Shown piece after piece: positions 19,167 to 42,700 of a DNA stretch of 64,000 nt; position 1 is the stretch's first letter, and each line of letters starts with the position of its first letter. Origin of the DNA: Malus domestica (Eukaryota; Streptophyta; Magnoliopsida; Rosales; Rosaceae); the NCBI RefSeq assembly GCF_042453785.1, contig NC_091670.1, positions 1,240,001 to 1,304,000 of the forward strand, given 5' to 3'. Under the pieces are notes generated by a model. That model was not told where the DNA came from and ran no database searches. It saw nothing but the letters and a program-made list of their open reading frames with translations. The translations under genes were made by a program, and so were the position numbers.

Positions 19167-22100
19167 ATGGCTAGAGTTTGTTCGCCATACTTTGATCCTG
19201 AGTATGAGAACCTGAGCACAAGAATCAATCCCCCAAGGTATTCTCCCTCTGTGCGTATGAACTATTTAATCAAAATTCTATTTGGGTTTCACCGTTTCAT
19301 TCAGCGGGACTGTCATTGTATTTGTATTATCTTCTAGTTGTTTTACATCGTTGTACGTTTTGTTTGCAGGGTCTCCGTAGACAACTCTAGCTGCAGTGAC
19401 TGTACTCTAGTCAAGGTGATTTTTCCTTTTAACCGTTATAATTACGCTCCGTTGACACCAGATTCTTGCAATCATGTATGAAAATTGTTTTCTCCTTTGA
19501 ATTAATAGGTGATTATAGAATGAAATTCATAGGTTAATTTACCACTAAACGGAAGACATGTCTTTCCAACTCCTGCTGGAAAACCACCCAAAGACGGGAT
19601 TTAATTTGCTTCGTTCTTATCTTACACTCAGTGAACATGTATTCCAGCCATCATGTTGAAATTGGTGTGGGGGGTATGAACTTATGTGTAGGTTGACAGT
19701 GTCAACAAACCGGGAATTCTGCTTGAAGTTGTGCAAATCTTGACAGACCTTGACCTCATAATCACCAAAGCCTATATCTCCTCCGATGGTGGATGGTTCA
19801 TGGATGGTATGTATATTCTTCGGCTGATCTTTCCCTAATGCTTTGTCTGTTTAGTTGATTTCTTACACTATTGGATAGGCCTAGTCCTGTTGGCTCCGAA
19901 TCCTCTTTTGAATTGATAAATTTTTGCTTTCTGTTAGTTAATACCCTCCATGGAAAAAATGCCATGTTGAATTCACAGTTCTTGATTTGAACTCTTTACA
20001 CATAAGAATTTGATTGTCCACCCGTATCAAAGTCTTTGACCCTAGCTTGGCTGCACCTAAAATGAGATTAACAAATATATAGGTAATAAACTTTCGGAAA
20101 ACCTTATTTCGAAGAATAATGCATTGTGAGCATCACATTCCCTGCAATTGAGTACAAACATCGTATTATAACTTATTGAGGGAGATAAGTTTGTCATACT
20201 AAGAGGGCAGAACAAGAGTACGCAGCAACTCGTTGTGCTGTGTGCCTGCGCGCACGTGTATACAATTTATTGACATTTTGTGTTCTTTAATGGACAGTAT
20301 TTCACGTCACCGATCAGCAAGGAAAAAAAGTTACAGACAGTAAGACCATTGACTACATAGAGAAGGTAATCCCCTTGGTTCTTTTTTACTGCCACATGCT
20401 TTCCTGTGTTTTTGCAACCATCATCTGGGTCAAGATTCTCTTCATTCTAAATTGGACTTAATAATTTGCTTTACTAGAAACTGCAGGCACATGAACTGTC
20501 ATCTTGCATAAAGGGTTTCCTCTTTTTATCATTTCGTTGTTACAAAGGATTTCTTTTATGTGATCGGTGATATTAAGAGTGATCTTGTCTGTGATTTGTG
20601 TCATGCATAGGCTTTAGGACCAAAGGGCCATATCACAGACCTGCTGAATGCTTGGCCAGGAAAAGGGGTTGGAGTGCACTCTATCGGGGATCATACGGCC
20701 ATTGAGCTAATTGGCAGAGACCGACCAGGTCTCTTATCTGAGATCTCTGCTGTCCTTGCCAACCTTCACTTTAATGTAATTGCTGCCGACGTATGGACAC
20801 ACAATGGACGAATAGCTTGCGTTGTGTATGTCAATGATGATACTACATGCCAACCTGTGGAGGATCAAGCCAGGTTATCTACTATGGAGGAGCAGCTCAA
20901 GAACATCCTGCGTGGGTGTGAGGACGATGAGAAAGTTGGTCGCACTAGCTTCTCTATGGGGTTCACCCATGTTGATAGGCGGCTCCACCAGATGTTGTTT
21001 GCTGATAGGGATTATGAGGGTGGTGGACTGGCACATGAAGTTGATCACTTTCCTCCCTGCTTCCAACCAAAGATCGCCATTGAGCGTTGTGAAGAAAAGG
21101 GGTACTCGGTGGTTAGTGTGCGGTGCAAGGACCGTGCAAAGCTTATGTTTGACATCGTATGCACACTCACAGATATGCAGTATGTTGTTTTCCATGCCAC
21201 CATCTCATCTGATGGCCCATACGCATCACAGGTACATACTTCTCATGCTCATCTATTGGCCAATTTTCAAGTTTTTAAAACTATTCCTCTAACGGATGAA
21301 TTTTTTAGGTGGTTTCTTTTCTGTTTCTTGATTAAAATTCCGTAAACTGATGCTTATAGTTAACTGCAGGAGTATTTTATTCGTCACATGGATGGTTGCA
21401 CCCTCGATACTGAAGGAGAAAAGGAAAGAGCCATCAAATGTATTGATGCTGCAATTCGAAGAAGAGTAAGCGAGGTTAGTGAAAAATCTATCCAACTTTT
21501 AACGCTCGTTTTAAAAGCTTGTTTTGCTTCGAGTTAGTGCACATTTGAACTCAAGAATATATTATAAACTAATCCTGGTCCATGGACTTGCAGCTACACA
21601 GCATAAAAGGTTGTTGAGCATTTTCAACATAATATATATGCATTTAACTTGTAGTATGTATTCCAGCAATAGTATACAGGAGATCAAGTACATAATTTCC
21701 TCTTAACTAAATTGTTTCCTCCAATTAATATATAAAACATCCGAATGGAATTCCTTTTTAATTGAATCCCTGACGAAAATCTTTAAGAAGAAATATAGTG
21801 CATGGAAAAGTTGTTACATAATTTATAAATTCATCTGTTAAACCGTGCAAGTGAATGCAATAGAAGTGACCATTTTCTGATTTAAAGTTGAAAGCAATAG
21901 CATATCTTTCATAAGCCACCACATCTAATTCACATGAACTTGTATTTGTAAACTGTACTTTATGTTGGAAACAATGAGGACGTGAGTTCTTGGTCCGTGT
22001 AGACGATTAAATTGCCATGAAATTCAGGGTCTAAGGCTGGAGCTGTGTGCAAAGGATAGAGTAGGCTTGCTTTCTGAAGTAACAAGGATCCTGAGAGAGA

Positions 22101-22351: not shown

Positions 22352-24177
22352 CAAGAGGTCCATATGAATATTGTAAGGTACATTGAAAATGTACAGAAGA
22401 ATAAATCTGTTCAGGAAGTTATCTGGACAGACTTTCTGCTTTTGTACTCTTTGTATAATATGTATGCATGTAAGTTTGAAACTTTTGGACTTTGCACAAC
22501 ACTCTCTTTTTACTTCTTTTTGACATTTGATCCTTATCTTGATTAGTCTTATGATTACGCTTCCCAAATGCCTCTTTGATATGTCAATCCAACTCTACTT
22601 TCATTATACATTGTGCAACTTTGTATTTTTTATTTTTTCACAAGCGATATTCTACACTAATTTACATCAAGGAGCGGACGAATGACGTAGTGGTTTCAAG
22701 AGGAAAGTCGTAGCCGCCAGAGCAATCTACCGCTTACAAAATTTGACTTTGCTTAATTTATTGTGTTAGCCAAGTACTATTCTCGGCCAAAAAAATATGT
22801 GTAGTTTAAGTTGCTATCACCATCGTTATCACCCTTCTCCTTACATGAGTAGTTCCCGAGATTCTATTGTAGGCTTCGAAAAGACCATGTCGTTTTAGTT
22901 CTAGCATTTTATTACATATATAAAAGAGATGATTGAATACATGTGTGGATCAATCAAGTAAAGTCGATTGAATGCCAGTGCGGATTCAATCGAGATTTTG
23001 AGTGATTTTTAATCACATATGTCATATTATTGTCACTCATACAAGATTTGTAGCTTACTTGGATTTTTGTTTTGATTTTGTGGTCAGTTTCAAAGTGTAG
23101 GGTTGTTTTTTAAGAGTAGCAAAGATAACAGTTAGAGATGAGGATTTCAAGTGGTGTAGCTGATGTGGGTAGGGCACTCGAGAGTAATTGTATTCTGCTG
23201 AATATATGATAATATTTAGATGTGAGTTTCAATGGATTTTATATATTTGTTTTAGAGCTTCATTCTTTTACCATGTGTCAATTTTGAACGTATTTCAAAA
23301 TCATTTCAAGACATGATAATCATAGACCGGGCCAAAAACATAGTGGTGGCCACATCATGCACCTTACAGGAAGGGTTTGAATGCAAGACCTCTAATAATT
23401 AGAGGCCTAAAAAAGTTTTAAAATGTTAATGGATGAACCAAAAATGCCTGTTAAGCTAAAATTGTGGACAAATATGACTAAATTTGACCAAAGAATATGA
23501 TTAGCTTGTAGTTAGGGTATGCTGAAAATAATCCATTCAGGGCAAGGAAGATTTTAGTTGCTTGCAACGGAAATTATTCTTTATTTTTTATCATTTATGT
23601 GTCAATATCCGCACATATGTGAATATTAGATTGAATTCATCCCATGCACTCAACTCTGGACAATCTGGTTTGCGGAAAGGATTTCGGATCCCTTCCACCT
23701 AATTTTTCTTATCAAACAATTTAGGCCCTTGAATTTGCACATACCACACATTGCCACATAAATATTACTTCAAAACATTAAAACACATTTGTCGTTTAAG
23801 TACTACATCTACACTCGAAAATAAGAGCCTAATAAAAAAATAATACATACACTACTAATCTATTACAAATTTTAAATGTGCAAGGATATGCAAAATGAAA
23901 CAGTTTTTGTTTTCAAGGTTGTGAAATCTTTCTCAAAAGTTTAAACCTCAATTTACAAAATCCTCGATTTACATCGATCATCATGAAATTGCATTGGAAC
24001 TTTGGCTTGATCTATTGCCTTCAAGAGTTATGTTGATGATGTTTTCAGTAAGGTTTTCCACGTCATAACTATTTTCTGCATAAACTAAGCATAGAAAAAC
24101 CAAACATTAAAAATCATTCAAATTATGAGAAGTTTACCAAAATAATTATGAAAAAAAATAAAACAATAGTACTATAC
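22352..24177. other. ACR3 3' flank and gene-free spacer before the satellite
   Basis: The first 200-300 bases are probably ACR3 3' UTR. A short piece at 22635-22680 (aagcgatattctacactaa) resembles a SINE 3' end on the minus strand. No gene is supported from 22700 to the start of the satellite. Confidence 0.5.
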
Positions 24178-27100
24178 CATACTTTTATTAAGTATAAACA
24201 TAAGATCTTGTGGTATCCACTAGTGTAAATATTTTAAATTGAAGATCAAATTCAATCATTGTATTCATATAAGGTCAAGGAGTGTAGTTGTAAAAAATCA
24301 TCAAAATCGGAGTTAAATTAACCGTTAAATCGTGATTTTTCATTTATAACCGTCGAAAAGTTTTGTCCCGTTACGTGCTCTCTGAATGTTTGTTTTTTGC
24401 AATTTTTGGCGTATGCGATCTCGAAATATATACAAACATGTTTGACGGTTGGATCATTGAAACTAGTTTCATAGAATGAGTATCCCATCAAAACAATAGA
24501 TTCAATAATACTTAAGAGTTTATTCATACTTTTATTAAGTATAATATAAGATTTTGTGGTATCCACTAGTGTAAATATTTTAAATTGAAGATCAAATTCA
24601 ATCATTGTATTCATATAGGGTCAAGGAGTGTGGTTGAAAAAAAACATCAAAATCGGAGTTAAAATGACCGTTAAATCGTGATTTTTCGTTTATAACCGTC
24701 GAAAAGTTTTGTCCCGTTACTTGATCTCTGAATGTTTGTTTTTTTGTAATTTTTGACGTATACAATCTCGAAGTATATATAAACATGTTTGATGGTTGGA
24801 TCATTGAAACTAGTTTCGTAGAATGAGTATCCCATCAAAACAATAGATTCACTAATACTTAATAGTTTATTCATACTTTTATTAAGTATAATATAAGATT
24901 TTGTGGTATCCACTAGTGTAAATATTTTAAATTGAAGATCAAATTCAATCATTGTATTCATATAGGGTCAAGGAGTGTGGTTGTAAAAAAACATCAAAAT
25001 CGGAGTTAAAATGACCGTTAAATCGTGATTTTTCGTTTATAACCGTCGAAAAGTTTTGTCCCGTTACTTGATCTCTGAATGTTTGTTTTTTGCAATTTTG
25101 GCGTATGCAATCTCGAAGTATATATAAACATGTTTGACGGTTAGATCATTGAAACTAGTTTCGTAGAATGAGTATCCCATCAAAACAATAGATTCACTAA
25201 TACTTAATAGTTTATTCATACTTTTATTAAGTATAATATAAGATTTTGTGGTATCCACTAGTGTAAATATTTTAAATTGAAGATCAAATTCAATCATTGT
25301 ATTCATATAGGGTCAAGGAGTGTAGTTGTAAAAAAACATCAAAATCGGAGTTAAAATGACCGTTAAATCGTGATTTTTCGTTTATAACCGTCGAAAAGTT
25401 TTGCCCCGTTACTTGATCTCTGAATGTTTGTTTTTTGCAATTTTGGCGTATGCAATCTCGAAGTATATATAAACATGTTTGACGGTTGGATCATTGAAAC
25501 TAGTTTCGTAGAATGAGTATCCCATCAAAACAATAGATTCACTAATACGTAATAGTTTATTCATACTTTTATTAAGTATAATATAAGATTTTGTGGTTTC
25601 CACTAGTGTAAATATTTTAAATTGAAGATCGAATTCAATCATTGAATTCATATAAGGTCAAGGAGTGTAGCTGCAAAAAATCATCAAAATCAGAGTTAAA
25701 ATGACCGTTAAATTGTGATTTTTCTTTTTATAACCGTCGAAAAGTTTTGTCCCGTTAATTGATCTCTGAATGTTTTTTTTTGTAATTTTTTACGTTTGCG
25801 ATCTCAAAGTATATACAAACATGTTTGACGGTTGGATCTTTGAAACTAGTTTCGTAGAACGATTATCCCATCAAAACAATAGATTCACTAATACTTAATA
25901 GTTTATTCATACTTTTATTATCCACTAGTGTAAATATTTTAAATTGAAGATCGAATTCAATCATTGTATTCATATAAGGTCAAGGAGTGTAGTTGTAAAA
26001 AATCATCAAAATCGGAGTTAAATTAACCATTAAATCGTGATTTTTCGTTTATAACCGTCGAAAAGTTTTGTCCCGTTACTTGCTCTCTGAATGTTTTTTT
26101 TTTCCAATTTTTGGCGTATGCGATCTCGAAATATATACAAACATGTTTGACGGTTGGATCATTGAAACTAGTTTCGTAGAATGAGTATCCCATTAAAACA
26201 ATAGATTCACTAATACTTAAGAGTTTATTCATACTTTTATTAAGTATAACATAAGATTTTGTGGTATCCACTAGTGTAAATATTTTAAATTGAAGATCGA
26301 ATTCAATCATTGTATTCATATAAGGTCAAGGAGTGTAGTTGTAAAAAATCATCAAAATCGGAGTTAAATTAACCGTTAAATTGTGATTTTTCGTTTATAA
26401 CCGTCGAAAAGTTTTGTCCTGTTACTTGCTCTCTGAATGTTTGTTTTTTCCAATTTTTGGCGTATGGGATCTCGAAATATATAAAAACATGTTTGATAGT
26501 TGGATCATTGAAACTAGTTTCGTAGAATGAGTATCCCATCAAAACAATAGATTCACTAATACTTAAGAGTTTATTCATACTTTTATTAAGTATAACATAA
26601 GATTTTGTGGTATCCACTAGTGTAAATATTTTAAATTGAAGATCGAATTCAATCATTGTATTCATATAGGGTCAAGGAGTGTAGTTGTAAAAAATAATCA
26701 AAATCGGAGTTAAAATGACCGTTAAATCGTGATTTTTCGTTTATAACCGTCGAAATGTTTTGTCCCGTTACTTGATCTCTGAATATTTGTTTTTTGCAAT
26801 TTTTGGCGTATGCGATCTCGAAGTATATATAAACATGTTTGACGGTTAGATCATTGAAACTAGTTTCGTAGAATGAATATTCCATCAAAACAATAGATTC
26901 ACTAATACTTAATAGTTTATTCATACTTTTATTAAGTATAATATAAGATTTTGTGGTATCCACTAGTGTAAATATTTTAAATTGAAGATTGAATTCAATC
27001 ATTGTATTCATATAAGGTAAATGAGTGTAGCTGCAAAAAATCATCAAAATCAGAGTTAAAATGACCGTTAAATCGTGATTTTTCTTTTTATAACCGTCGA

Positions 27101-29635
27101 AACGTTTTGTCCCGTTAATTGATCTCTGAATGTTTGTTTTTTGTAATTTTTGACGTATGCGATCTCGAAGTATATACAAACATGTTTGATGGTTGGATCT
27201 TTGAAACTAGTTTCGTAGAACGAGTATCCCATCAAAACAATAGATTCACTAATACTTAATAGTTTATTCATACTTTTATTAAGTATAACATAAGATTTTG
27301 TGGTATCCACTAGTGTAAATATTTTAAATTGAAGATCGAATTCAATCATTGTATTCATATAAGGTCAAGGAGTGTAGTTGTAAAAAATCATCAAAATCGG
27401 AGTTAAATTAACCGTTAAATCGTGATTTTTCGTTTATAACCGTCGAAAAGTTTTGTCCCGTTACTTGCTCTCTGAATGTTTTTTTTTTGCAATTTTTGGC
27501 GTATGCGATCTCGAAATATATACAAACATGTTTGACGGTTGGATCATTGAAACTAGTTTCGTAGAATGAGTATCATATTAAAACAATAGATTCACTAATA
27601 CTTAAGAGTTTATTCATACTTTTATTAAGTATAACATAAGATTTTGTGGTATCCACTAGTGTAAATATTTTAAATTGAAGATCGAATTCAATCATTGTAT
27701 TCATATAAGGTCAAGGAGTGTAGTTGTAAAAAATCATCAAAATCGGAGTTAAATTAACCGTTAAATTGTAATTTTTCGTTTATAACCGTCGAAAAGTTTT
27801 ATCCCGTTACTTGCTCTCTGAATGTTTGTTTTTTGCAATTTTTGGCGTATGCAATCTCGAAATATATAAAAACATGTTTGACAGTTGGATCATTGAAACT
27901 AGTTTCGTAGAATGAGTATCCCATCAAAATAATAGATTCACTAATACTTAAGAGTTTATTCATACTTTTATTAAGTATAACATAAGATTTTGTGGTATCC
28001 ACTGGTGTAAATATTTTAAATTGACGATCGAATTCAATCATTGTATTCATATAGGGTCAAGGAGTGTAGTTGTAAAAAATCATCAAAATCGGAGTTAAAA
28101 TGACCGTTAAATCTTGATTTTTCGTTTATAACCGTCGAAATGTTTTGTCCCGTTACTTGATCTCTGAATGTTTGTTTTTTGCAATTTTTGGCGTATGCGA
28201 TCTCGAAGTATATATAAACATGTTTGACGGTTGGATCATTGAAACTAGTTTCGTAAAATGAATATTCCATCAAAACAATAGATTCACTAATACTTAATAG
28301 TTTATTCATACTTTTATTAAGTATAATATAAGATTTTGTGGTATCCACTAGTGTAAATATTTTAAATTGAAGATCGAATTCAGTCATTGTATTCATATAA
28401 GGTCAAGGAGTGTAGCTGCAAAAAATAATCAAAATCAGAGTTAAAATGACCGTTAAATCGTGATTTTTCTTTTTATAACCGTCGAAAAGTTTTGTCCCGT
28501 TACTTGCTCTCTGAATGTTTGTTTTTTGTAATTTTTGACGTATGCGATCTCGAAGTATATACAAACATGTTTGACGGTTGGATCTTTGAAACTAGTTTCG
28601 TAGAACGAGTATCCCATCAAAACAATAGATTCACTAATACTTAATAGTTTATTCATACTTTTATTAAGTATAACATAAGATTTTGTGGTATCCACTAGTG
28701 TAAATATTTTAAATTGAAGATCGAATTCAATCATTGTATTCATATAAGGTCAAGGAGTGTAGTTGTAAAAAATCATCAAAATCGGAGTTAAATTAACCGT
28801 TAAATCGTGATTTTTCGTTTATAACCGTCGAAAAGTTTTGTCCCGTTACTTGCTCTCTGAATGTTTTTTTTTTGCAATTTTTGGCGTATGCGATCTCGAA
28901 ATATATACAAACATGTTTGACGGTTGGATCATTGAAACTAGTTTCGTACAATGAGTATCATATTAAAACAATAGATTCACTAATACTTAAGAGTTTATTC
29001 ATACTTTTATTAAGTATAACATAAGACCACTAGTGTAAATATTTTAAATTGAAGATCGAATTCAATCATTGTATTCATATAGGGTCAAGGAGTGTAGTTG
29101 TAAAAAATCATCAAAATCGGAGTTAAAATGACCGTTAAATCGTGATTTTTCGTTTATAACCGTCGAAAAGTTTTGTCCCGTTACTTGCTCTCTGAATGTT
29201 TGTTTTTTGCAATTTTTGGCATATGCGATCTCGAAATATATAAAAACATGTTTGACGGTTGGATCATTGAAACTAGTTTTGTAGAATGAGTATCCCATCA
29301 AAACAATAGATTCACTAATACTTAAGAGTTTATTCATACTTTTATTAAGTATATCCACTAGTGTAAATATTTTAAATTGAAGATCGAATTCAATCATTGT
29401 ATTCATATAGGGTCAAGGAGTGTGGTTGTAAAAAATCATCAAAATCGGAGTTAAAATGACCGTTAAATCGTGATTTTTTGTTTATAACCGTCGAAAAGTT
29501 TTGTCCCGTTACTTGCTCTCTGAATGTTTGTTTTTTGCAATTTTTGGCGTATGCGATCTCGAAGTATATACAAACATGTTTGACGGTTGGATCGTTGAAA
29601 TTAGTTTCGTATAATTCGTATCCCATGAAGTTCAA
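24178..29635. repeat. Satellite array, about 346-bp unit, 16 copies
   Basis: The landmark ataaccgtcgaaa recurs at roughly 24349, 24696, 25041, 25387, 25731, 26051, 26399, 26745, 27091, 27438, 27784, 28130, 28478, 28821, 29158 and 29488. Spacing is mostly 344-348 bases, with shorter spacings (320, 338, 330) where units lack about 15-25 bases before the ccactagtgtaa motif. Units are roughly 93-98% alike by eye. Variants recur every four units (see findings). The last unit stops at about 29630, where microsatellite-rich DNA begins. Each unit has an open frame of 80-120 codons on the minus strand, but unit length is not a multiple of three, so the frame does not persist. Confidence 0.95.
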
Positions 29636-29639
29636 TGGT

Positions 29640-29905
29640 GTGTGTGTGTATATATATATATATTTATTTATTAAGTAGATTTAAATCTATTTATTTTGTA
29701 TGTATAATTATTATAGTTTTTAGGGGTATCAAATTTAATATATATATATATATAATTATTATAGTATATATAATTATTATAATTATTATAGTAATTTAAT
29801 ATATATATATATATAATTATTATAGTTTTTAGGGGTATAAAATTGTTAAATTAATATATATATATATATATAATTATTATAGTATTTTTTTAGGGTTATA
29901 AATTA
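29640..29905. repeat. TA/ATTATTATAG microsatellite-rich tract
   Basis: Runs of (ta)n alternate with taattattatag and ttttaggggtata motifs, in at least three imperfect larger units. The same tract is at 39020-39280 with different (ta)n lengths. Confidence 0.8.
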
Positions 29906-29914
29906 TTAAATTAA

Positions 29915-30100
29915 TATTCTGCTTATCGTGTATCGTGTTACCCACGTGTATACCCGAACAAGCCCGTTATCTTAACAGGTGCTTATCGGGTTACCCGATA
30001 ACGACCCGTTTCGTTATCGTGTCGACCCGAACACCTGTTAATTTCGTGTCGTGTTGTGTCGGGTTATCGGGTCGTGTCAGGAATTGCCAGACCTAACTAA
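29915..30100. repeat. Dispersed cgggttatcgggtcgtgtc-type repeat (hAT-like end?)
   Basis: The stretch contains clustered cgtgttacccacgtgtatac, gggttacccgataacgaccc, cgtgtcgtgttgtgtcgggt and ends gaattgccagaccta. Such sequence is recalled as the end of dispersed non-autonomous hAT-like repeats in several dicots. It has an inverted-repeat character (aacaggtgcttatcggg and cccgaacacctgtta). A second copy is at 39293-39470. Confidence 0.35.
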
Positions 30101-30410
30101 AACACGGGCCCACTTTAAAGGTTATAATAATTTTAACCAAATTTCAAGGATCCAAATTGTTTAATGAGGAGGATTATGTATAAGCTGGTTTGGAATGCAA
30201 GCAAGCAGCCATGCACAGCTCTCTTGCTGGCCTCGAGTTGGCAGCAGACATGCACCCTCAAGAAACCAACATGATCCTTTTGGTGAGGATCTTAGGGATT
30301 CAAGAATCGTGTTCGTTTATCGTACATCGTGTGATCAATTTTTATCAAGTACTGTTTGTGTTTAATTTTAAATAAAAATATTTAAAATAATTTTTAACCG
30401 CACAAGGTAA

Positions 30411-30922
30411 TGTTGATGCACAAAATCAGCGAAGACTTTGGTACAACAGAAAGTGTCAGGTTTTGTGACCTTCGCTTGGTTGCTTCGGTCACTAGTGAGG
30501 ATAAGTACGTAAATGAATAGAGACAGAGAAGCAAACACAGGATGTACGTGGTTCACCCAGATTGGCTACGTCCACGGAGTAGAGGAGTTCTTATTAGTAG
30601 TGAAGGGCTTACACAAGTACAAAGGATCAAGCTCTCAATTTAGTGAGTTCTTGTGAATGATTTAACACAAATGGCATTAGCCAATATTGTGGGGGAATGA
30701 CCCCTATTTATAGAAAAACTTGTAGCTTTGTCACATTGACATGTGTCATGTTATGATTGGTTCTTGATGTCGACACGTGCTGCGCTCTGATTGGCCTCTA
30801 ATCTTGACACGTGTCGAGTAGTGATTGGCCTCCTGGTCGGAGGGGAACTCTTCTGGGTCCTTGACAGTATAGCGTTGGCCGGTGCTCGGTAGTTTCGGGA
30901 TTGGTCAAGTATGGTACAAACA
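30411..30922 (-). repeat. LTR (left; 3' LTR in element orientation)
   Basis: 512 bp, TG...CA ends, with a single base difference from its partner (cccctattt versus cccatattt). It is preceded by accgcacaaggtaa. Confidence 0.92.
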
Positions 30923-33009
30923 GTGCTCCCCTAAGTTCCCGAGTGAGGGAAACTCCTCGGTTGGGGACTTGCAAGATCCAATCCCTTGAGTAATCACGAA
31001 ACTTCTAAGTACCGAAGTGTGGTCTGATCTTCATCTGCCCTTCTCTGGAAGTACCTTTCCTCCATCCGGGAATGGTGTATTTAGCTGATGTTAACGCACA
31101 AGGTAATGTATCAATTTCACTTGAAGCTTAGTTGTAGTTTCGGGCTTAGTCAAGTGTGATACAAACCCTATAGTAGGAGTCCCCCAAGTCGCCGAGCTAA
31201 GAGATCTGCCGAAAGAGGTGACAGACAAGGTAGGCAGTCAAACTTCCAAGTAAGCAACCCAGGATCAGAGGTTTGACTTCGGCTTCCGGTTGATTGTTCT
31301 CCTTCTCCTTGTCTCTCATTCAACTGCCAGGATAAGGAGAAGCAAATAGATAAGAGATGATATGAGATACTTTTGCTTTTGAAGAAGTAACTTTCCACAG
31401 GCTTATTCTTGAACTGTGCTGGAGGGTTTTCTGGTGCCCTTCAGAGTATAAGGCCGACTCAAAAATTTGAGGGTCAAAACAAGTCCATCAAATCTAGAGT
31501 ACGTTCGACCTTGATGATATGGGATACTTTTGCTGTTGACGGAATAATGAATGTGGTATGGAAAGGTGTCGTGCTGTAGTGATCTGTTTCAGCTCACCGT
31601 TGAACCTTCTGCTTCAATCTTTTGCATGGCAGAAGTGGTGTGCAACCTTTGCATTTAAATGGTCCTTCAGAACATTCCTTCATAGTGACTCATCCACGCT
31701 TGGCAGCTTCAGTGTAAAGAGCCAATATCTGATCAACTGTCATGAGGTATTTGCCGGTGGAATTCGTGACCTTGACAGCAGTTGAGGATGAGTACTCGAG
31801 AGCAATGCTAAGTAAGCAACCAGGCAAAGGCTCCAGGCAGTCAGTTCCAAATTGGAGGTTTGATTTCAGGTTCCGACTGACTGCTCTCTTTCTCCTTGTC
31901 CTGCAGGTGTGGACAAGGACAAAGACAAAGATAGGGAGAAAGCATGATATGGGATACTCTTGCTTTCGACCCTGATGATATGAGATACTCTTGTTCTTGG
32001 TGTGGCTTATTTGCTGAGGTATTATCGGGGGGAAATAAAGCTGAGTATTTCGAGAGGTTATGTTGAGGGTGCCTTTTCGAATGCGAGAAAGGGTTGAGCA
32101 TTTTTGCAGGTTTGCCTGTCCGTTGAGGAGGGAGGTCAATGTATATAGGGATTTCCCAATAACAAGTAGTAATGCTATTCCTTTACCCTTCTTGCCAGCT
32201 TCACGTGTTTTAATTTTGTCAGAGCACTTTGAAAAAGTGGTATGTGGTATCTGGAAAGCTGATATTACGTGTGAAGATTACAGACAAGCTTTATCTAAGG
32301 AAATCTGGCTCTCGAAGTTCTGAGAGTTGTGCCTCTTCAGTTTTCGAACAAGCAATCCCGTCGAGGATCTGACTCTCGAGATTCGGAAAGCGGTGCTACT
32401 CCGGTTTTTGAGAAAGTAATTATGTTGGGAGTCTTTTCTCGAATGTGAGTAAAGGTTGGACGTTCTTGCCAACCTGTCTTGCCGCAAAACACGGAGGTCG
32501 ACACACATAGGGACTTTCCAGTTGTCAAGCAGTGGTGCTGTTCCTTTACCCTTATGGGTAATAGTAGGGTAGCTGGAACTTCGAAATTCTCGTGCCTAAA
32601 CTTTGTCAGAGATCTTTGACAAAGTTATATGTGGTACCTGAGGAGTTGATGGTGCATATGGAGAGCGGTGATTGAACAGTAAGATTCACGTGCTTTTTAC
32701 TTCACCAGAAATCTTCGACAGATTGCCCGTAATTTTCGCAAAGCTGATTGTGCATGTGACAGGTGCTGACGAGGCTGAAAAAGCAGGTGCTTCTTCGATT
32801 TCTGAGATCGGCCCTCGTGGTCTCTGAGCAGCCCAGCTTTTGAGAAAGCAAACGCCTCTTCGATTTCTGAAGCTCCGTCGAGTGCAGATTTTTATAGAGG
32901 CTGGCATTAAGTTCCACAGCACACCTGAATCTCTACCAGTAGAAGCTCATTTCTTGCACTTCTAAGATCTTGATTTGTCTGACCTCTTCCTTCTTCAACA
33001 CATTTGAAA
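30923..33009. other. LTR-element interior: divergent repeated blocks
   Basis: No protein domain is recognised. Several blocks recur in diverged form: gatatgggatacttttgct near 31360, 31520 and 31950; cccgagtgaggg-aaactcctcgg near 30940 and 33900; and a block of about 360 bases starting ttatgttgagggtgcc (32060) and ttatgttgggagtct (32421). A short piece at 31095-31160 resembles a shrunken LTR (see findings). Confidence 0.6.
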
Positions 33010-33684
33010 ATGTCTGGACCCTCCGACCGTCGTTTTGACCTGAACCTTGGAGAAGAGACAGCCACGCCTTCTCCAGACAACATATGGCGCCCATCCTTCA
33101 TATCCCCTACTGGTCCTCTTACCGTTGGGGATTCTGTGATGAAGAATGATATGACCGCTGCAGTGGTAGCCAGGAACCTTCTCACTCCCAAAGATAACAG
33201 ACTACTTTCCAAACGGTCTGATGAGTTGGCTGTTAAGGACTCTCTGGCTCTTAGTGTTCAGTGTGCAGGTTCTGTGTCTAATATGGCCCAACGCCTATTT
33301 GCTAGAACCCGCCAAGTTGAATCATTGGCTGCTGAAGTGATGAGTCTCAAACAGGAGATTAGAGGGCTCAAGCATGAGAATAAGCAGTTGCACCGGCTCG
33401 CCCATGACTATGCTACAAACATGAAGAGGAAGCTTGACCAGATGAAGGAATCTGATGGTAAGGTTTTACTTGATCATCAGCGGTTTGTGGGTTTGTTCCA
33501 AAGGCATTTATTGCCTTCGTCCTCTAGGGCTGTACCTGGTAATGAAGCTTCAAATGATGAACCTCCAATGCCTCCTCCTTCTGGGGTTTTGTCAAGTACT
33601 GAGGCTCCGGATAACCACCCTCCGGTGCTTTCTCTTTCTGGGGCTCTACCGACTGCTGAGACTTCCCCTAAGCAACCTTTGTGA
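33010..33684 (+). CDS. Antisense open frame (aORF) in the LTR element, 224 aa, coiled coil
   Basis: An ATG at 33010 opens 224 codons on the strand opposite to gag. The product starts MSGPSDRRFDLNLGEETATP. Its middle has a heptad-like charged stretch (VESLAAEVMSLKQEIRGLKH, then ENKQLHRLAHDYATN, about residues 100-145), followed by a Pro/Ser-rich tail with two similar segments (PPPSGVLSSTEAPDN and LSLSGALPTAETSPK). Frames of this type are recalled as uncharacterised proteins annotated many times in rosaceous genomes, as expected for a multicopy element. No function is known to me. It may be a captured host fragment kept as an additional ORF, or an annotation artefact of a non-coding spacer. The maintained frame in a young copy favours the former. 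Confidence 0.5.
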   Translation: MSGPSDRRFDLNLGEETATPSPDNIWRPSFISPTGPLTVGDSVMKNDMTAAVVARNLLTPKDNRLLSKRSDELAVKDSLALSVQCAGSVSNMAQRLFARTRQVESLAAEVMSLKQEIRGLKHENKQLHRLAHDYATNMKRKLDQMKESDGKVLLDHQRFVGLFQRHLLPSSSRAVPGNEASNDEPPMPPPSGVLSSTEAPDNHPPVLSLSGALPTAETSPKQPL

Positions 33685-34309
33685 AGGCTCCTTTTGTTTG
33701 TTTATTTTGACTCATGTATATGTACATATTTGTGGCTTATCGAAAATATTAATAAATAAGCTTTGCTTCATTTCAATATATTGTGTTAAATACACCAAAG
33801 CCTTCTTCATAAAGTTCTTTGAATTTTTGCTTTTGTTGAAACCTGTATTGTTGAAGCTTTGTGAGTGAAGCATGTAGTTTGAGGTAGTGTTCCCTTAATT
33901 TCCCGAGTGAGGAAAACTTCTCGGTTGGAGACTTGAAAAATCCAAGTCACTGAGTGGTTGTGAGACTGCCGAGTATTAAGGTGCAGTAGCATATGGTGGG
34001 AGTCCCCCAAGTCTTCAGGCGAAGAGAGTTGCCGAATGAGGTGTCTCGCTTGTTACTAATTTGTCAAAGTAACGAATCCTTGTTTCGATGTCACACATTC
34101 GCATATGCCTTGTCTAAAAATATTTCCAACTTTTGTGTGTTTGATGCTGCATGCTATTGACTAGACAAGATCAAGTGCAATTAGTAGCTTTTCTCTCTTT
34201 TTCATCTTTTTCTTTGGTGGAATTGCTTTTCGTTTCCACTAATCAGCCTGAGTGGATGCAAGATAACACCATTCTCTATAGCTCAGATCGCAAAGTCGTC
34301 TTCATGAAA

Positions 34310-34900
34310 GTTGTTCCTTATCTTGTGAACTACAACATCTCCAAATTTGAGATCCATCGGAGTAGTACAACTCCAGAAATTCAGGTATGATGAGTAACTG
34401 TTCATCAATTTTCTGTTAACCCGTCAGACTTGTTGTGAGCTTCTAAACTCCATTTTTTCTTGTTCATCTCAACATACTTTCTTCATCGAAGTTGTTCCTT
34501 AACTTGTGAACTACAACATATCCAAATTTGAGGTCCCTCGGAGCAGTATAACTCCAGAAATCCAGGTATGATGAGTGACTGTTTATCATTTGTCTGTCAA
34601 CCCGTCAGATTTGTTGTGAGCTTTGAAACTCTATTTTCTCTTGCTCAGATCAGCATGCTTTCTTCATTGAAGTTGTTCCTCAGCTTGTGAACTACAACAT
34701 ATCCAAATTTGAGATCCCTCGGAGCTGTATAACTCAAGAAATTTAGGTATGATGAATGACTGGTTATTATTTTTCTGTCAACCCGTCAGATTTGTTGTGA
34801 GCTTCGAAACTCCATTTTCTATTGTTCAGATCAGCATGCTTTCTTCATTGAAGTTGTGCCTCATCGTCTCTTTCATAACATATCAAAAATTCAGAATGAA
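34310..34900. repeat. 181-bp tandem repeat inside the LTR element
   Basis: gttgttcct/gttgtgcct begins at 34310, 34491, 34672 and 34853, an exact spacing of 181. Each unit contains gtgaactacaacat, ccaaatttgag and tctgt-t/c-aacccgtcaga. There are three full copies and partial ends, with moderate divergence between units. Confidence 0.9.
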
Positions 34901-35439
34901 CTAATGGTTAAATATTTCCAGATCTTCGAAACATCATAGCAGCTTCGAAATCTGCAAGAATCCGACTGTCATGTTTGGAGCTTCAACACTTTAATTTCCG
35001 TCGCTCAAACAGAAATGGTTCCTTCTTGAAAGTTGTTCATATGCTCAAAAACTATAGGGTGTCCAAAATTCAGCTCCATTGGAGAAGAGCAGAGGTTGCA
35101 GAAATTTGATAGATGAAAGGAGGCGGAAGAGGGAGAGAGAGAAAAAGTCTCTTGGGTTGGATTTCTATTTTGGGGCAGATTCCAAGTTTTGTAGCACCTT
35201 CATTATTGATGAATTGCTTGTACTTTTGTCCATTATGAAACTTGGGACTTTGGCTTGTTGTTGGATCTATTATAATATGTTTGGGAACATATATAAGTGA
35301 ATAAATAAGAAGGAAAATTTTGGGCCCTTGTGGGTGTAAAACAAAAAATGTTTATGTTTACCCAAGTGTTTTTGTACAAGTTCAAGGGCATCTTGGGTTT
35401 TGTGAACAAAATTTGTTTATTTGGAGCAAGGTTTTGTGT

Positions 35440-36058
35440 TGAAGCTTTGTAGGTGAAGCTTTGGAGGTGAAGCTTTGATGGTGAAGCTTTGTAGATGAAG
35501 CTTTCTGGGTGAAGCTATGTAGGTGAAGCTTTCTAGGTGAAGCTTTTTTAGGTGAAGCTTTGTAGGTGAAGCTTTTTTAAGTGAAGCTTTTCGGGTGAAG
35601 TTTTTTGGGTGAAGCTTTGTGGGTGAAGCTTTTTAGGTGAAGCTTTTTTAGGTGAAACTGTTTGGGTGAAGCTTTTTAGGTGAAGCTTTGTGGGTGAAGC
35701 TTTTTTAGGTGAAGCTGTTTGGGTGAAGCTTTTTGGAGGTGAAGTTTTTTTTTTTTTTTTTGGGTGAAGCTTTTTTAGGTGAAGCTTTTTGGGTGAAACT
35801 TTTTGGATGAAGCTTTTTGGGTGAAGTTTTGGAGGTGAAGCTTTTTGGGTGAAGCTTTGTGGGTGAAGCTTTTTAGGTGAAGCTTTGTGGGTGAAGCTTT
35901 TTTAGGTGAAGCTGTTTGGGTGAAGCTTTTTGGAGGTGAAGTTTTTTTTTTTTTGGGTGAAGCTTTTTTAGGTGAAGCTTTTTGGGTGAAACTTTTTGGA
36001 TGAAGCTTTTTTGGTGAAGTTTTGGAGGTGAAGCTTTTCGGGTGAAGCTGTTTTTTTT
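35440..36058. repeat. GGTGAAGCTTT minisatellite inside the LTR element
   Basis: More than 35 copies of ggtgaagcttt with variable spacers (tttgg, tgtgg, tttta, ggag) and poly-T runs. A larger repetition of about 190-200 bases is visible (gaagctttgtgggtgaagct...tttttttttttgggtg occurs twice, near 35680 and 35880). On the other strand it reads as Lys/Ser/Pro repeats (SPKKLHPKSFT), which is compositional. Confidence 0.9.
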
Positions 36059-36137
36059 TTTTTTTTTTTTTTTTTTTGGCGCTTGACACGGTTTTGATCA
36101 TGCATGTAGTGATAGAATTTGTTTCTTCTTATTGTAG

Positions 36138-36410
36138 ATGTCAGAGCCTGGAAGTTCTAGTGATGAGGGTTCTTCTAGCTTTAGCTCTAAGTCTGAGTCT
36201 GCAATGTCGGAGTCTTCAGGGTCTTTGTTAGAGTCCTGTACTAGAGAAACATTGGATGATCTTCCCAACCGTCAAACTTTAGCTATTGCTAGTTCTTCCT
36301 CCATGGCGTTGGGTGAGGGGGTTTCTCCTGATATGTCTTTGCCTCGGCGGAGGCATGGTTATAAGCCTGCGCCATCACCTCAGAGTAAGTCTTCCAAGTA
36401 TTGGCATTGA
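36138..36410 (+). CDS. Second antisense open frame in the LTR element, 90 aa, Ser-rich
   Basis: It begins MSEPGSSSDEGSSSFSSKSE and is acidic and Ser-rich, then basic at the end (LPRRRHGYKPAPSPQSKSSK). It lies directly 3' of the minisatellite and overlaps the gag region on the opposite strand at its end. The preceding ttgtag at 36133-36138 resembles a splice acceptor, so it could be a later exon of the same antisense transcript as the frame at 33010. This is inferred from position only. Confidence 0.3.
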   Translation: MSEPGSSSDEGSSSFSSKSESAMSESSGSLLESCTRETLDDLPNRQTLAIASSSSMALGEGVSPDMSLPRRRHGYKPAPSPQSKSSKYWH

Positions 36411-37720
36411 TCATGTATTTAAAGAAACAATCACGTAGGCCTGCCGTGAAGGCTTTGAGGGCAGTCTTGTCGTCTGCCTCGGCACACCGGGAGTATTCAT
36501 GGCTGAAGCGGCCAGCATACATACGTAATGACTCGTCTGGCCTCTGGCGGATAGTGTACAGGTCATCTGTAGAGTGCAAGCGATCGGTTTGGAAAATGTG
36601 TTGGGAAACAAATAGTTTCCTCAATTCCTCAAATGAGTCTACCGTCTCAGGTGTAAGACGACAATACCAATTTAGAGCTCCGCCAGAGAGGGTGGAGGGG
36701 AAGAGAAGACATCGCTCTTCGTCGGTGTGCATCCGATATGCCAGGGTGGACTCAAAGAGGTTAAGGTGCTCAATCGGGTCCTCTTTTCCAGTATAAAGTT
36801 GCAAGCCAAGCTTCTGCTTTGTCTTTGCTTGAAGGGGGTGTTGAGGATCCTCCTTGTAAGAGGGCCAGGCCTGGGTTGGTTCCAGTCAGGTATTTCAGCC
36901 TGACGTTCAGCCTTCAACTTGTTTACTTCCTCAAGAAGTTGTAGGACAAGGGGGTCCTGAGCGGAGTTATGTGCCACTGGAGCTTTCTTTCGTAAATCTC
37001 CATCTCCTCTTGGAATTAGGAAGGTTTGATCAAGGGCATGTGATTTTTCCCTGGACTCGCTGTACTGGCTTCCAGGGTATGTCTGTCGGAACACCTCTGA
37101 GTCCCCTGTACCCTCATGTCTCTCTAGGACTTGTTGCACCTTCCCCAAGTTGGTGGCCGGCTCGGGCCGTGGCAGGGGACCGAGTCTCTCAGACATCCTT
37201 GGGTCATTGATCTTTGAGCTTATATGGATGGAATTCTCTCGACGTTGCTTCAGGAAATCCCGACAATCGTGAAAGACGGCTTTCGATCCTTCTGCCCCTT
37301 CAGCAAAGAGGTGTCTCCCTCCGCTTCTCATGGTTCGGGTCGAAGCAACTGGGTTAAGAGAAGCCTCATGTTGATTATCAAATCGAGGGGTAATTTGTTC
37401 CCTATCAGGGATATCTATGTCGAATGCATGTGACCCTCCATGTTGGAAGGCACCCAGTTGATGGTTGACTTCCACGGGGGCAACAAGCTCGCGTGTCTGA
37501 GCTTGCCTAGCTTCGTGAAGTGTCTCGAATAGCTTCTCATATTGCTCCTGGAGGACCTCATTCCTCATTGCTATCTTGTTGTTCTGAGCTTCCAACTCAT
37601 CGACTTTAGCTTGAAGAAGAACTCGTTTTCCTTCCTTCTTTCGTTGTTTCGCACTATGTGCAAGGGGGGTGTCATTCTGTGTGCTGTGGCTTCCTTCGCT
37701 TCCCATGCTGGAGAGGGATG
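36289..37720 (-). CDS. gag-type open region of the young LTR element
   Basis: On the minus strand this part of the element reads through a coiled-coil, charged N-terminal part (about 37700-36850) and a retrotransposon gag core (about 36804-36430) with FPSTLSGGALNWYCRLTPET, FEELRKLFVSQHI and LRMYAGRFSHEYSRC. These match the Retrotrans_gag family of gypsy elements. No zinc knuckle or protease is visible beyond it. As a retroelement part it is reported only as a region. Confidence 0.75.
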
Positions 37721-37813
37721 CCTGATCAAAAGAAAGTGTACGAATGATAGAAACCAGCTTGACACAGCTGAAGAGAGTAGGAATAAGTGTCGTTTCCCAC
37801 AGACGGCGCCAAA

Positions 37814-38325
37814 TGTTGATGCACAAAATCAGCGAAGACTTTGGTACAACAGAAAGTGTCAGGTTTTGTGACCTTCGCTTGGTTGCTTCGGTCACTAGTG
37901 AGGATAAGTACGTAAATGAATAGAGACAGAGAAGCAAACACAGGATGTACGTGGTTCACCCAGATTGGCTACGTCCACGGAGTAGAGGAGTTCTTATTAG
38001 TAGTGAAGGGCTTACACAAGTACAAAGGATCAAGCTCTCAATTTAGTGAGTTCTTGTGAATGATTTAACACAAATGGCATTAGCCAATATTGTGGGGGAA
38101 TGACCCATATTTATAGAAAAACTTGTAGCTTTGTCACATTGACATGTGTCATGTTATGATTGGTTCTTGATGTCGACACGTGCTGCGCTCTGATTGGCCT
38201 CTAATCTTGACACGTGTCGAGTAGTGATTGGCCTCCTGGTCGGAGGGGAACTCTTCTGGGTCCTTGACAGTATAGCGTTGGCCGGTGCTCGGTAGTTTCG
38301 GGATTGGTCAAGTATGGTACAAACA
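37814..38325 (-). repeat. LTR (right; 5' LTR in element orientation)
   Basis: 512 bp, the partner of 30411-30922. In element orientation it is followed directly by the tttggcgccgtctgtggga primer-binding region. On the other side it abuts satellite sequence (agtatcccatcaaaat). Confidence 0.92.
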
Positions 38326-39005
38326 AGTATCCCATCAAAATAATAGATTCACTAATACTTAAGAGTTTATTCATACTTTTATTAAGTATAACATAAGATT
38401 TTGTGGTATCCACTGGTGTAAATATTTTAAATTGACGATCGAATTCAATCATTGTATTCATATAAGGTCAAGGAGTGTAGTTGTAAAAAATCATCAAAAT
38501 CGGAGTTAAAATGACCGTTAAATCGTGATTTTTCGTTTATAACCGTCGAAAAGTTTTGTCCCGTTACTTGCTCTCTGAATGTTTGTTTTTTGCAATTTTT
38601 GGCATATGCGATCTCGAAATATATAAAAACATGTTTGACGGTTGGATCATTGAAACTAGTTTTGTAGAATGAGTATCCCATCAAAACAATAGATTCACTA
38701 ATACTTAAGAGTTTATTCATACTTTTATTAAGTATATCCACTAGTGTAAATATTTTAAATTGAAGATCGAATTCAATCATTGTATTCATATAGGGTCAAG
38801 GAGTGTGGTTGTAAAAAATCATCAAAATCGGAGTTAAAATGACCGTTAAATCGTGATTTTTTGTTTATAACCGTCGAAAAGTTTTGTCCCGTTACTTGCT
38901 CTCTGAATGTTTGTTTTTTGCAATTTTTGGCGTATGCGATCTCGAAGTATATACAAACATGTTTGACGGTTGGATCGTTGAAATTAGTTTCGTATAATTC
39001 GTATC
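38326..39005. repeat. Satellite block, right copy (two units)
   Basis: This is the same satellite family as 24178-29635. It starts in mid-unit directly at the LTR end. The first 135 bases carry the private variants actggtgtaa and ttgacgatcg found only at about 28000-28030 in the left array. From about 38461 it follows the left copy from 29085 onward. Confidence 0.92.
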
Positions 39006-39779
39006 CATGAAGTTCAATGGTGTGTGTGTGTATATATATATATTTATTTATTAAGTAGATTTAAATCTATTTATTTTGTATGTATAATTATTATAGTTTT
39101 TAGGGGTATCAAATTTAATATATATATATATATATAATTATTATAGTATATATAATTATTATAATTATTATAGTAATTTAATATATATATATAATTATTA
39201 TAGTTTTTAGGGGTATAAAATTGTTAAATTAATATATATATATATAATTATTATAGTATTTTTTTAGGGTTATAAATTATTAAATTAATATTCTGCTTAT
39301 CGTGTATCGTGTTACCCACGTGTATACCCGAACAAGCCTGTTATCTTAACAGGTGCTTATCGGGTTACCCGATAACGACCCGTTTCGTTATCGTGTCGAC
39401 CCGAACACCTGTTAATTTCGTGTCGTGTTGTGTCGGGTTATCGGGTCGTGTCAGGAATTGCCAGACCTAACTAAAACACGGGCCCACTTTAAAGGTTATA
39501 ATAATTTTAACCAAATTTCAAGGATCCAAATTGTTTAATGAGGAGGATTATGTATAAGCTGGTTTGGAATGCAAGCAAGCAGCCATGCACAGCTCTCTAG
39601 CTGGCCTCGAGTTGGCAGCAGACATGCACCCTCAAGAAACCAACATGATCCTTTTGGTGAGGATCTTATGGATTCAAGAATCGTGTTCGTTTATCGTACA
39701 TCGTGTGATCAATTTTTATCAAGTACTGTTTGTGTTTAATTTTAAATAAAAATATTTAAAATAATTTTTAACCGCACAA
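38461..39779. repeat. Segmental duplication, right copy
   Basis: Near-identical to 29085-30405. After accgcacaa (39771-39779) it continues into unique AT-rich DNA (tatatgatgaatgg), whereas the left copy continues into ggtaa plus the LTR. Confidence 0.9.
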
Positions 39780-42700
39780 TATATGATGAATGGACATGAT
39801 TCACAAATCTTCTGAATCCTCACAAAAAGGATCCGACGAGGATCCGGAGAAAAATGCACATTAACACATAAGAAAATAACATTAAAATAAGCAAAATGCT
39901 ACCAAAATACACAAAGTAGTGCACTTGACTAAATAAGAGTAATGTTACTTATACCAACTTTTATATTAAATTTGCAAAACTTGTGATGTGTTATCGATAC
40001 AAAATAAGCATGTTAATAAACATTTTAACAATAATTTAATCTTCAACAACAACCATGCTATATAATTTGCAAAATATAATTTACATATATGGTTTTTTTA
40101 GCATTACCCGATTAAATTATCATTTGTTAATTCTTAGTTGTTCGTTGAATTCTTAGTTTTTTTAGCGTTATAACCGGAACATGATGATTAATTTATTCCT
40201 GTCAAAGGGGACTGCAAAGAGTACAGTAACACTAATCAAACTCTCACAAGCAAACGATTCTTATAAATTATTGTTTATTTTTAGAGTTTAGCGCTCAGGG
40301 TCTAACATAAAAAAAATATAATTTTTATATGTCAATCATGCAAACTTTTTCATGTGTAAAGAAAGACCAGAAGGTGTGCAGAATTCATGATCAAGATTAT
40401 CAAGAAAATGAGTTCCCCTATATGAAGAAGAAACAAACAAAAGATATGATGGAAAAATGTATCTCTTTAAAATTATTATCAAGGAGAGGAGAAGGGTTCC
40501 AAATTTTTACAATAATTATGAAAAAAGAAGGAATTTTAAATTTGGAATGCATGAATAAATTTTTTTATATTTAAATTAAAAAAGATACGTATGTGATATG
40601 CACCCACAAAAGATAAAACCAAAATTTGATTTCTGACGTCCACTAGCAAGCAAACATGAAATTACACCACTCATGCATTTCTGAAAGGTGAAGTGAAAGG
40701 AGATAAGAATGCTGATTCAATCACTTTCCTTTTGTCCAGGGAAAGGATATTATGGGATTTAATTGGTTACAAGTGTGAGACCTAATGATGAAGCATAATA
40801 TTCGACGTCGTTTTCTCGCGTCTACATGCACCCATTTGCATGTAAAGCCTCACTTAGGAATTTGGCAGAGATTTGTCCATCAAATACTACAGTTTCACGC
40901 CCAACAGTTTATAACCGAAACACGTTAAGATCATCTTCAGTAACGAAGAGCTAAATGTAACATTTGGCAATATTTTAGTCCTTTAAAACTTAAATCTCTT
41001 GTACCTGAGATTTGTTAATAAGTAGAATGATAACGCTTTCTTCATTTTCAGTAAATAACATATTCTTTATTTCACGCTAACATAACATTATTTGACCGTA
41101 TAAACATCATAATCATATCATTTTATATACTATGCAATCTATTGCAATCTGATCCTTATCACTCTTAATCTTATGCAATTCTAGGTAACCAAACGTGCTC
41201 TCAAGGATAAAAACGACTTGGCCCCAACTTCTAACTATATTTTGAAATCTATATCAAAAAACACTTAAATGAGTTGTTCAAATTAATTATTCCTTTAAAC
41301 TATGTACTTCTTTTATAGGCTAATTGTCATATGATCCACCTAAATTATTTAAGGTGCTTAGCTAAATTGCTATTAAGGATTAGTCTCTTTTATCTGCCAA
41401 AATATTAACATCAGTATGTATCTAATAGTTGCCTTCTTAACTGAAATTAGACGGTATGGCTGATTCATACTTAGGTTTTGACAGAAGGTATCTATCGCTT
41501 GCTTTGCTTTGCTTCCCAATTTTGCACGTTACATAGTGTCATCTAAAACCCAAAAGTTAAGCTATTATGTTACAAGGATCCGACCTCCCAAGTTGGCCAT
41601 TTGCTTTTGGATTCTGCCAACTGCATAATGGAAGGAAGACTTGGCCATTTTCCTCTCAACTTTCACTCAACTACTGATTTTTCTGCTATTGTCAATTTCC
41701 TCTATGAACTATATTAATCGTCATTTTCCGCTATTGTTATGCTTACCATTATTTCATCTAATTTTCCTTCCAAAAAAATGTCGCTCTTGTAATTAAATGT
41801 GACCCTCATATTTCTACTTTTTCATTTCTTGAAATTTGACATTTTTGGTGAAGTTAAGTAGATGAAATGTTGGAAAACATGATTGTACGTCGGAAATCAG
41901 GGGAAATTTTTCAGTGTGACAGGTACACGGAGTAGTACATCACATATCACTATACAAATGATGGGATATTTGTTTTAAAAAGTTAATAACTTAAAGAATA
42001 AAATTTCCCACCATTTATATAAAAACAGGTGGTGTACTCTCGGTGTTCTGATCACAATGAAAAATTTCTCCGAAATCAGCCATTAATAATAGTTTGGGAG
42101 ATTTGAGAAATAAGCAGTGAAGTACAAGATAAAATCAGCAATATACTCATATGTAAATTAAAATAAACGATACGTTTAAAAATTATAAAGATTTTGTCAG
42201 ACGGAATTGAAATTGAAATTAAAGAAATGTTCGACCACATGAATTAGTTTGAAGATATAAGGTTTTCCTATTATTATAGGTTGTTCAAATGTTTTCTCTT
42301 TCTTTTACTTCTCAAAGTTTTTTTTTTTATCAACAAAGAAATATATTAAACGTGAAAGCCTCTGGTACAACTATAGTTTTTTTTCTTCTCAAAGTTGAAA
42401 ACGTGATTTCATTAATTGTATTAGAAAAAAAATGGTGGGATACCTTTCACTTACGAACTCACTACAAGATTTAAACATAAAACCTCTAATTTAACATCAA
42501 AGCAACAACGGGTCTCATTTGTGCAACATAAACGGTTTTAAAGGATTTAATAAACAATTTTGACAACAGGAATAACGTGAGACAGAAATTCAATTTAGAG
42601 GTTATGTGACAAAATATTAGTTCAAGAAGTATTAGGGTTTGGGAAGAGTCTAGATGTAATCAAAGTTGTTTTCAATGATAACAGGCTGGATAAGGATCAT

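Follow-up and report, generated by a model that had tools for sequence, protein, structure and literature searches.

An apple LTR retrotransposon with unmatched flanks between near-identical host blocks: a candidate for one-ended integration

How does a long terminal repeat (LTR) retrotransposon come to lie between two near-identical copies of host DNA, without the matching 5-bp target-site duplication of a canonical insertion? The question is raised by a 64,000-nucleotide stretch of Malus domestica contig NC_091670.1 (G000:C10:1240001-1304000; hereafter the window, in whose own coordinates positions are given), where a 7.9-kb LTR element on the minus strand (30411-38325) separates two such blocks and is flanked by GGTAA on the left (30406-30410) and by AGTAT on the right (38326-38330). 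We consider it probable that this is a recent copy of the element that integrated aberrantly, by one end only, and that templated repair of its free end duplicated ~1.3 kb of the neighboring DNA. Comparison searches were made within one 651-Mb genome of 19 contigs.

A near-identical block on both sides of the element

The arrangement comprises the following features, from left to right:

29083-30405, plus strand: duplicated block, copy 1, made up of the last satellite units, the right end of a hAT-like element, the flank of that element, and part of a miniature inverted-repeat transposable element (MITE)
30411-30922, minus strand: left LTR (the 3′ LTR of the element)
30923-37813, minus strand: internal region of the LTR element, with a purine-rich tract beside 30923 and the primer-binding site TGGCGCC beside 37813
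37814-38325, minus strand: right LTR (the 5′ LTR of the element)
38326-38465, plus strand: satellite segment running from the right LTR to the near-identical block
38466-39779, plus strand: duplicated block, copy 2, which runs on uninterrupted into the downstream DNA

BLAST aligned 28954-30405 to 38326-39779 at 97.7% identity, with the differences unevenly spread: the first 140 bp of the pairing contain 7 substitutions and one 11-bp indel, whereas 29083-30405 and 38466-39779 differ by 3 substitutions and 5 short indel events, mainly in AT or TG runs. On account of this unevenness, we set the near-identical block at the latter limits, close to those of an initial annotation of this DNA, which had paired 29085-30405 with 38461-39779 and had placed a 7.9-kb LTR element between the two. 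That element is indeed there, with LTRs of 512 bp each that differ by one mismatch (at 30704). The same annotation's account of the borders holds in part. The left LTR does adjoin the far end of the block, but homology stops at 30405 and five nonhomologous bases intervene; the right LTR does abut native satellite array, but the first 139 bp beyond it (38326-38464) equal the array unit at 27915-28053 (139/139) and not the in-register unit. Beyond these 139 bp, copy 2 tracks the unit starting at 28954, except for one private base at 38465. Two histories would produce this boundary: an exchange within the array near 29054-29083, leaving a block of 1.32 kb, which needs fewer events, or an original block of 2.49 kb (27915-30405), from whose second copy three units were then lost.

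Chance similarity among satellite units was considered as the source of the duplication and rejected: the stretch 30096-30272, which is neither satellite nor MITE, is duplicated too, with no third near-identical place among the 40 scored of 3,279 candidates. Among the same 40, the full tail (30096-30405) occurs at two places only, its own copies in the window, and the remaining matches are partial, nearly all of them being the MITE from ~30273 onward. When copy 2 is compared with a chimera of the two array stretches plus the tail, 4 of the 1,452 aligned bases are substituted, and the alignment has 5 gap events; set beside the single difference in 512 bp between the LTRs, this makes the duplication and the insertion look equally young, as a single event predicts.

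Junctions unlike those of the rest of the family

The bases that matter at the two junctions, and the MITE in which the block ends, are as follows:

30406-30408, plus strand: GGT, probably a short filler at the aberrant junction; missing from the other copy
30409-30410, plus strand: AA, spacer bases between LTR and primer-binding site; putatively an unprocessed end of the element's complementary DNA (cDNA)
38326-38330, plus strand: AGTAT, the right flank, in native satellite; in the array of copy 1, AGTATC occurs 12 times, spaced one unit apart
39647-39848, plus strand: hairpin-forming MITE, a high-copy match on both strands with a fold z-score of -3.1

The right junction reads CAAACA|AGTATC, with the CA terminus of the element (38325/38326) set within native satellite. 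The left junction reads CCGCACAA|GGT|AA|TGTTG, and the uninterrupted copy reads CCGCACAA|TATAT (39780-39784). Since the 110 bases preceding the left junction (30296-30405) are identical in both block copies while the other copy continues with TATAT, GGTAA is foreign to the locus; an allelic variant is unlikely, because three of the five bases differ beside 110 identical ones. Nor does GGTAA represent an ordinary variant of the MITE, whose relatives carry T at the first of these positions in 99 cases and G in one among the 100 listed of 198 sites (the search pattern allowed A, G, or T). A 14-base pattern spanning the junction matched only the window and C13:21465289, which is chance level, given 3 matches for the reversed control.

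The AA lies inside the BLAST match between the LTRs (30409-30922 against 37812-38325), whose primer-binding-site side reads TTTGGCGCC. Unprocessed cDNA of an LTR element would end in the bases between the LTR and the primer-binding site. A pattern for the left end of this LTR family has 695 matches in the genome, internal junctions included, and the flanks of the 100 listed were read; 6 of these 100 left flanks end in AA (by eye), of which 3 are TCAAA, and the one of these that was checked proved to be a mutated primer-binding site. Two copies preceded by GGTAA, at C4:1975892 and C17:11300495, were considered as donors of the five bases. The first has GGTAA on both sides of the element, in flanks unrelated to the window locus; the second was examined at its left end only. 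We claim neither as a donor, since among 695 matches chance alone would supply about one preceded by these bases.

Elsewhere in the family, matching 5-bp flanks are the rule. They occur in all 26 clean LTR pairs tested (10/10, 1, and 15/15), a nonrandom sample in which both LTRs had to be among the matches listed and from which one nested case, one compound case, and L103 were dropped, and in all three solo LTRs (L065, L093, and L102). The element in the window is therefore exceptional, and the initial annotation was right both to report unmatched flanks (GGTAA and AGTAT) and to see more than a simple insertion here.

A proposed one-ended integration with templated repair

What could leave one end normal and the other attached to foreign bases and a host duplication? 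Under the reading that we favor, integrase would have joined the right end only, inside the satellite array, leaving the left end free. A host polymerase would then have extended the free left end along the downstream DNA, starting within the MITE and proceeding leftwards across the hAT flank into the satellite, and the extension may have rejoined the left chromosome arm through satellite-unit homology, possibly out of register, with the outcome that a direct duplication replaces the usual 5 bp. The order of these steps and the nature of the polymerase are what we infer from the final arrangement: a normal right end joined to its native target and a left end joined to a 1.32-kb direct duplicate of the flanking host DNA. 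One-ended integration with templated repair would yield the normal right end, the AA on the left, and the duplication in one event; the left boundary of copy 1 lies inside the satellite, so homology was available for rejoining. Break repair starting within the element had been offered by the initial annotation as one possible explanation, and it could indeed account for the locus. An element-free allele carrying CCGCACAAGGTAA in the MITE would contradict one-ended integration.

A precedent comes from human immunodeficiency virus (HIV). According to the excerpted text of a study of aberrant proviruses formed when integrase strand transfer is impaired (PMC5041404), one end is normal in most cases and the other is most often attached to a host duplication, usually of hundreds or thousands of bp; the authors propose that the free viral end is extended on nearby host DNA, with homologous recombination. 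The apple locus resembles these proviruses in having one normal end and, at the other, a direct host duplication in place of 5 bp. It differs in that the HIV cases described there come from cultures with drugs or integrase mutants, whereas the plant element has no known trigger, and in that here the target is a satellite and the aberrant end is not truncated.

Several points weigh against one-ended integration. It is based on a single locus in a single assembly, and such events should be rare, since the same excerpts cite no aberrant cases among 99 unperturbed wild-type HIV integrations or among 85 from peripheral blood mononuclear cells (PMC5041404). Aberrant HIV ends usually, though not always, have short homology to the appended DNA (PMC5041404, excerpted text), whereas the junction here, which also carries the foreign GGT, has no clear short homology beyond T/A bases. 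We identified no template for GGT, and the AA could be chance. The array boundary accommodates both a 1.32-kb and a 2.49-kb block. Finally, the model does not predict that copy 2 carries the derived state at all three polarizable substitutions (of four in all): at 28054/38465, the derived base is in copy 2; at 29965/39339, the base of copy 1 is found in 17 of 19 readable hAT copies; and at 30295/39669, copy 1 has the base carried by 16 of the 18 MITE relatives that were read by eye, and none carries that of copy 2. No polarity can be assigned to the fourth (30225/39599), which is located in unique DNA.

Alternative explanations

An assembly artefact, in which the assembly crossed from one haplotype to the other within or next to the element and so gained a false duplication, is unlikely but has some points in its favor. 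The divergence of the copies (4/1,452) is what we take to be the allelic range for an outcrossing tree, the assembly may not be phased, and 12 of the 17 contigs whose length was read measure a whole multiple of 2,500, a hint of scaffold editing. The window contains no N bases, however, and a false join would have to coincide exactly with the LTR terminus and also generate five bases that belong to neither side, a poor fit. An ordinary insertion allele, moreover, would contribute AGTAT on the left as well.

It is quite unlikely, in our judgment, that end joining used linear cDNA to bridge two sister-chromatid breaks, of which one lay in the MITE hairpin and the other in the satellite, so that the element became the filler of a tandem duplication. 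Such a bridge would account for the duplication, the foreign bases, and the unprocessed AA. The MITE in which copy 1 ends, at the base equivalent to 39779, has a strong predicted fold, and the block stops immediately before four bases (39780-39783) that are unpaired in that prediction; this position beside the unpaired fold bases is suggestive only. Against the bridge, the right end finishes in CA without the two bases that, as we understand the chemistry, an untouched cDNA end would keep, which suggests integrase action. Filler DNA is inserted during plant end joining, as at the maize p locus (PMC2686159, excerpted text), whose repair junctions likewise carry foreign or nearby-copied bases, although there a filler-bearing deletion led to a gene fusion and here the result is an insertion with a duplication.

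If two members of the family had inserted at two sites of this locus, unequal exchange between them, in sister or homologous chromosomes, would yield the block-element-block layout and unmatched flanks, and a compound element (L044) exists in the family. Intact elements that lack target duplications have been attributed to unequal recombination in plants (PMC7251063, excerpted text), and the element in the window resembles them in being intact with unmatched flanks; the difference is that, under such recombination, each flank should be native to its own site, whereas the left five bases here are not. Exchange between two element copies, which the initial annotation had put forward, requires the native TATAT as the left flank, and GGTAA is found instead, with its G at a position where the MITE relatives have T. 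It also needs two same-family insertions within ~1.5 kb in addition to the exchange, and we regard it as very unlikely. On whether the element is itself a mosaic, its left half coming from one copy and its right half from another, the lists obtained for two internal stretches (40 scored candidates each) were ambiguous. A mosaic would in any case not separate the models, because template switching in reverse transcription presumably also makes mosaics.

Scarcely credible is a two-step history, in which the element first inserted normally into the array, between two copies of AGTAT, and a break at the outer edge of the left LTR was later repaired from the sister chromatid: GTA is common to GGTAA and AGTAT, so GGTAA could be a damaged target duplication, but this requires a second break within at most 5 bases of the LTR, and a match at three or more of five bases arises by chance about once in 10 times (at equal base frequencies).

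Relation to other rearrangements and wider meaning

Retrotransposition-linked rearrangements in cancer reportedly have, as here, an element at the rearrangement breakpoint. LINE-1 elements insert by target-primed reverse transcription and not by integrase, in which they differ from an LTR element. Plant tandem duplications made through staggered nicks or patch-mediated break repair are likewise direct duplications, made by synthesis at break ends, and are not known to have an LTR element between the copies. No comparable plant case was found by titles and the beginnings of abstracts in a partial literature search.

Recombination between elements is the usual explanation where target duplications are missing. 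Failed integration and exchange can be told apart at this locus, because the duplication preserves an empty site, from which the left five bases are seen to be non-native. We tentatively suggest that plant LTR retrotransposons may sometimes integrate by one end, with repair of the free end making kilobase-scale direct duplications of neighboring DNA. If true, such duplications would form a distinct class of retroelement-made rearrangement, at present classified under unequal exchange or under elements that have no target duplication, and satellite arrays would help the repair by making homology available in any register. The signature (an unprocessed end, foreign bases, and a native uninterrupted copy) would, if real, be searchable in plant genomes, and a search of this kind would gauge the shares of failed integration and exchange as sources of local duplications.

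The satellite carrier

The array into which the right LTR is set belongs to a larger unit:

23728-30095, plus strand: hAT-like nonautonomous element with a satellite array; left end absent from the copy in the window
24178-29626, plus strand: tandem array of 346-bp units, 15.9 copies (Tandem Repeats Finder)

The array is the core of a dispersed transposon and not a free-standing satellite; the 39 candidates scored gave at least 37 further sites. When 20 copies from elsewhere were compared, homology begins at 23728 in all 20 and ends at 30090-30099 in 18; of the two exceptions, L026 ends at 30106 and L028 has an additional match to 30403. A left terminal repeat was recognized in 17 of the 20, with 8-bp target duplications that are exact in 14 and have one mismatch in 3. 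From the ends (TAGGCCTGGCA) and these duplications we take the element to be hAT-like, an assignment in which mobilization by a transposase plays no part. It is a mobile satellite whose length changes between copies: the unit number is 5.9-11.9 in the 18 of the 20 fetched copies (L009-L028) that are listed as a single array, against 15.9 in the window.

The copy in the window has its right end at 30095, followed by host DNA (30096-30272), and lacks the left-end stretch, about 120-205 bp in other copies. The 8 bp at its right end (ACTAAAAC) have no copy in window positions 1-24200. The loss of the left end, together with this absence, therefore points to a second rearrangement or a deletion at 23728.

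The LTR element and its family

The element has canonical TG...CA LTR termini, a primer-binding site, and a purine-rich tract. The primer-binding side adjoins the right LTR (TTTGGCGCCGTC) and the purine-rich tract adjoins the left, which gives the minus-strand orientation. From the type of primer-binding site, we presume that it belongs to the Ty3/gypsy-like superfamily. One coding feature was recognized:

36289-36804, minus strand: gag open frame (Pfam PF03732, E 3.8e-16)

No polymerase domain was found in the 9 of 27 listed internal frames that were scanned, broken pieces being possible, and two of the scanned frames gave only weak matches, below the cut-off; the element is apparently gag-only and nonautonomous. 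In one set of 15 LTR pairs, 10 are spaced 11.6-15.5 kb apart, and pairs at this spacing may include complete relatives. The internal region also contains tandem arrays at 35440-36053 (14-bp units) and 34299-34861 (181-bp units).

Other arrangements occur in the family. In the compound element L044, one LTR has a primer-binding site on one side and a purine tract on the other; L043 is a nested insertion with two LTRs 177 bp apart and a purine tract after each. At G000:C1:13904332-13917746, a solo LTR is flanked by AAATT on both sides, and 13.4 kb away a same-family LTR has AAATT on its left.

Beside this locus in the window, the open frame at 20674-21345 encodes ACT domains (PF01842, E 2.5e-18) and is part of a plant ACT-domain gene.

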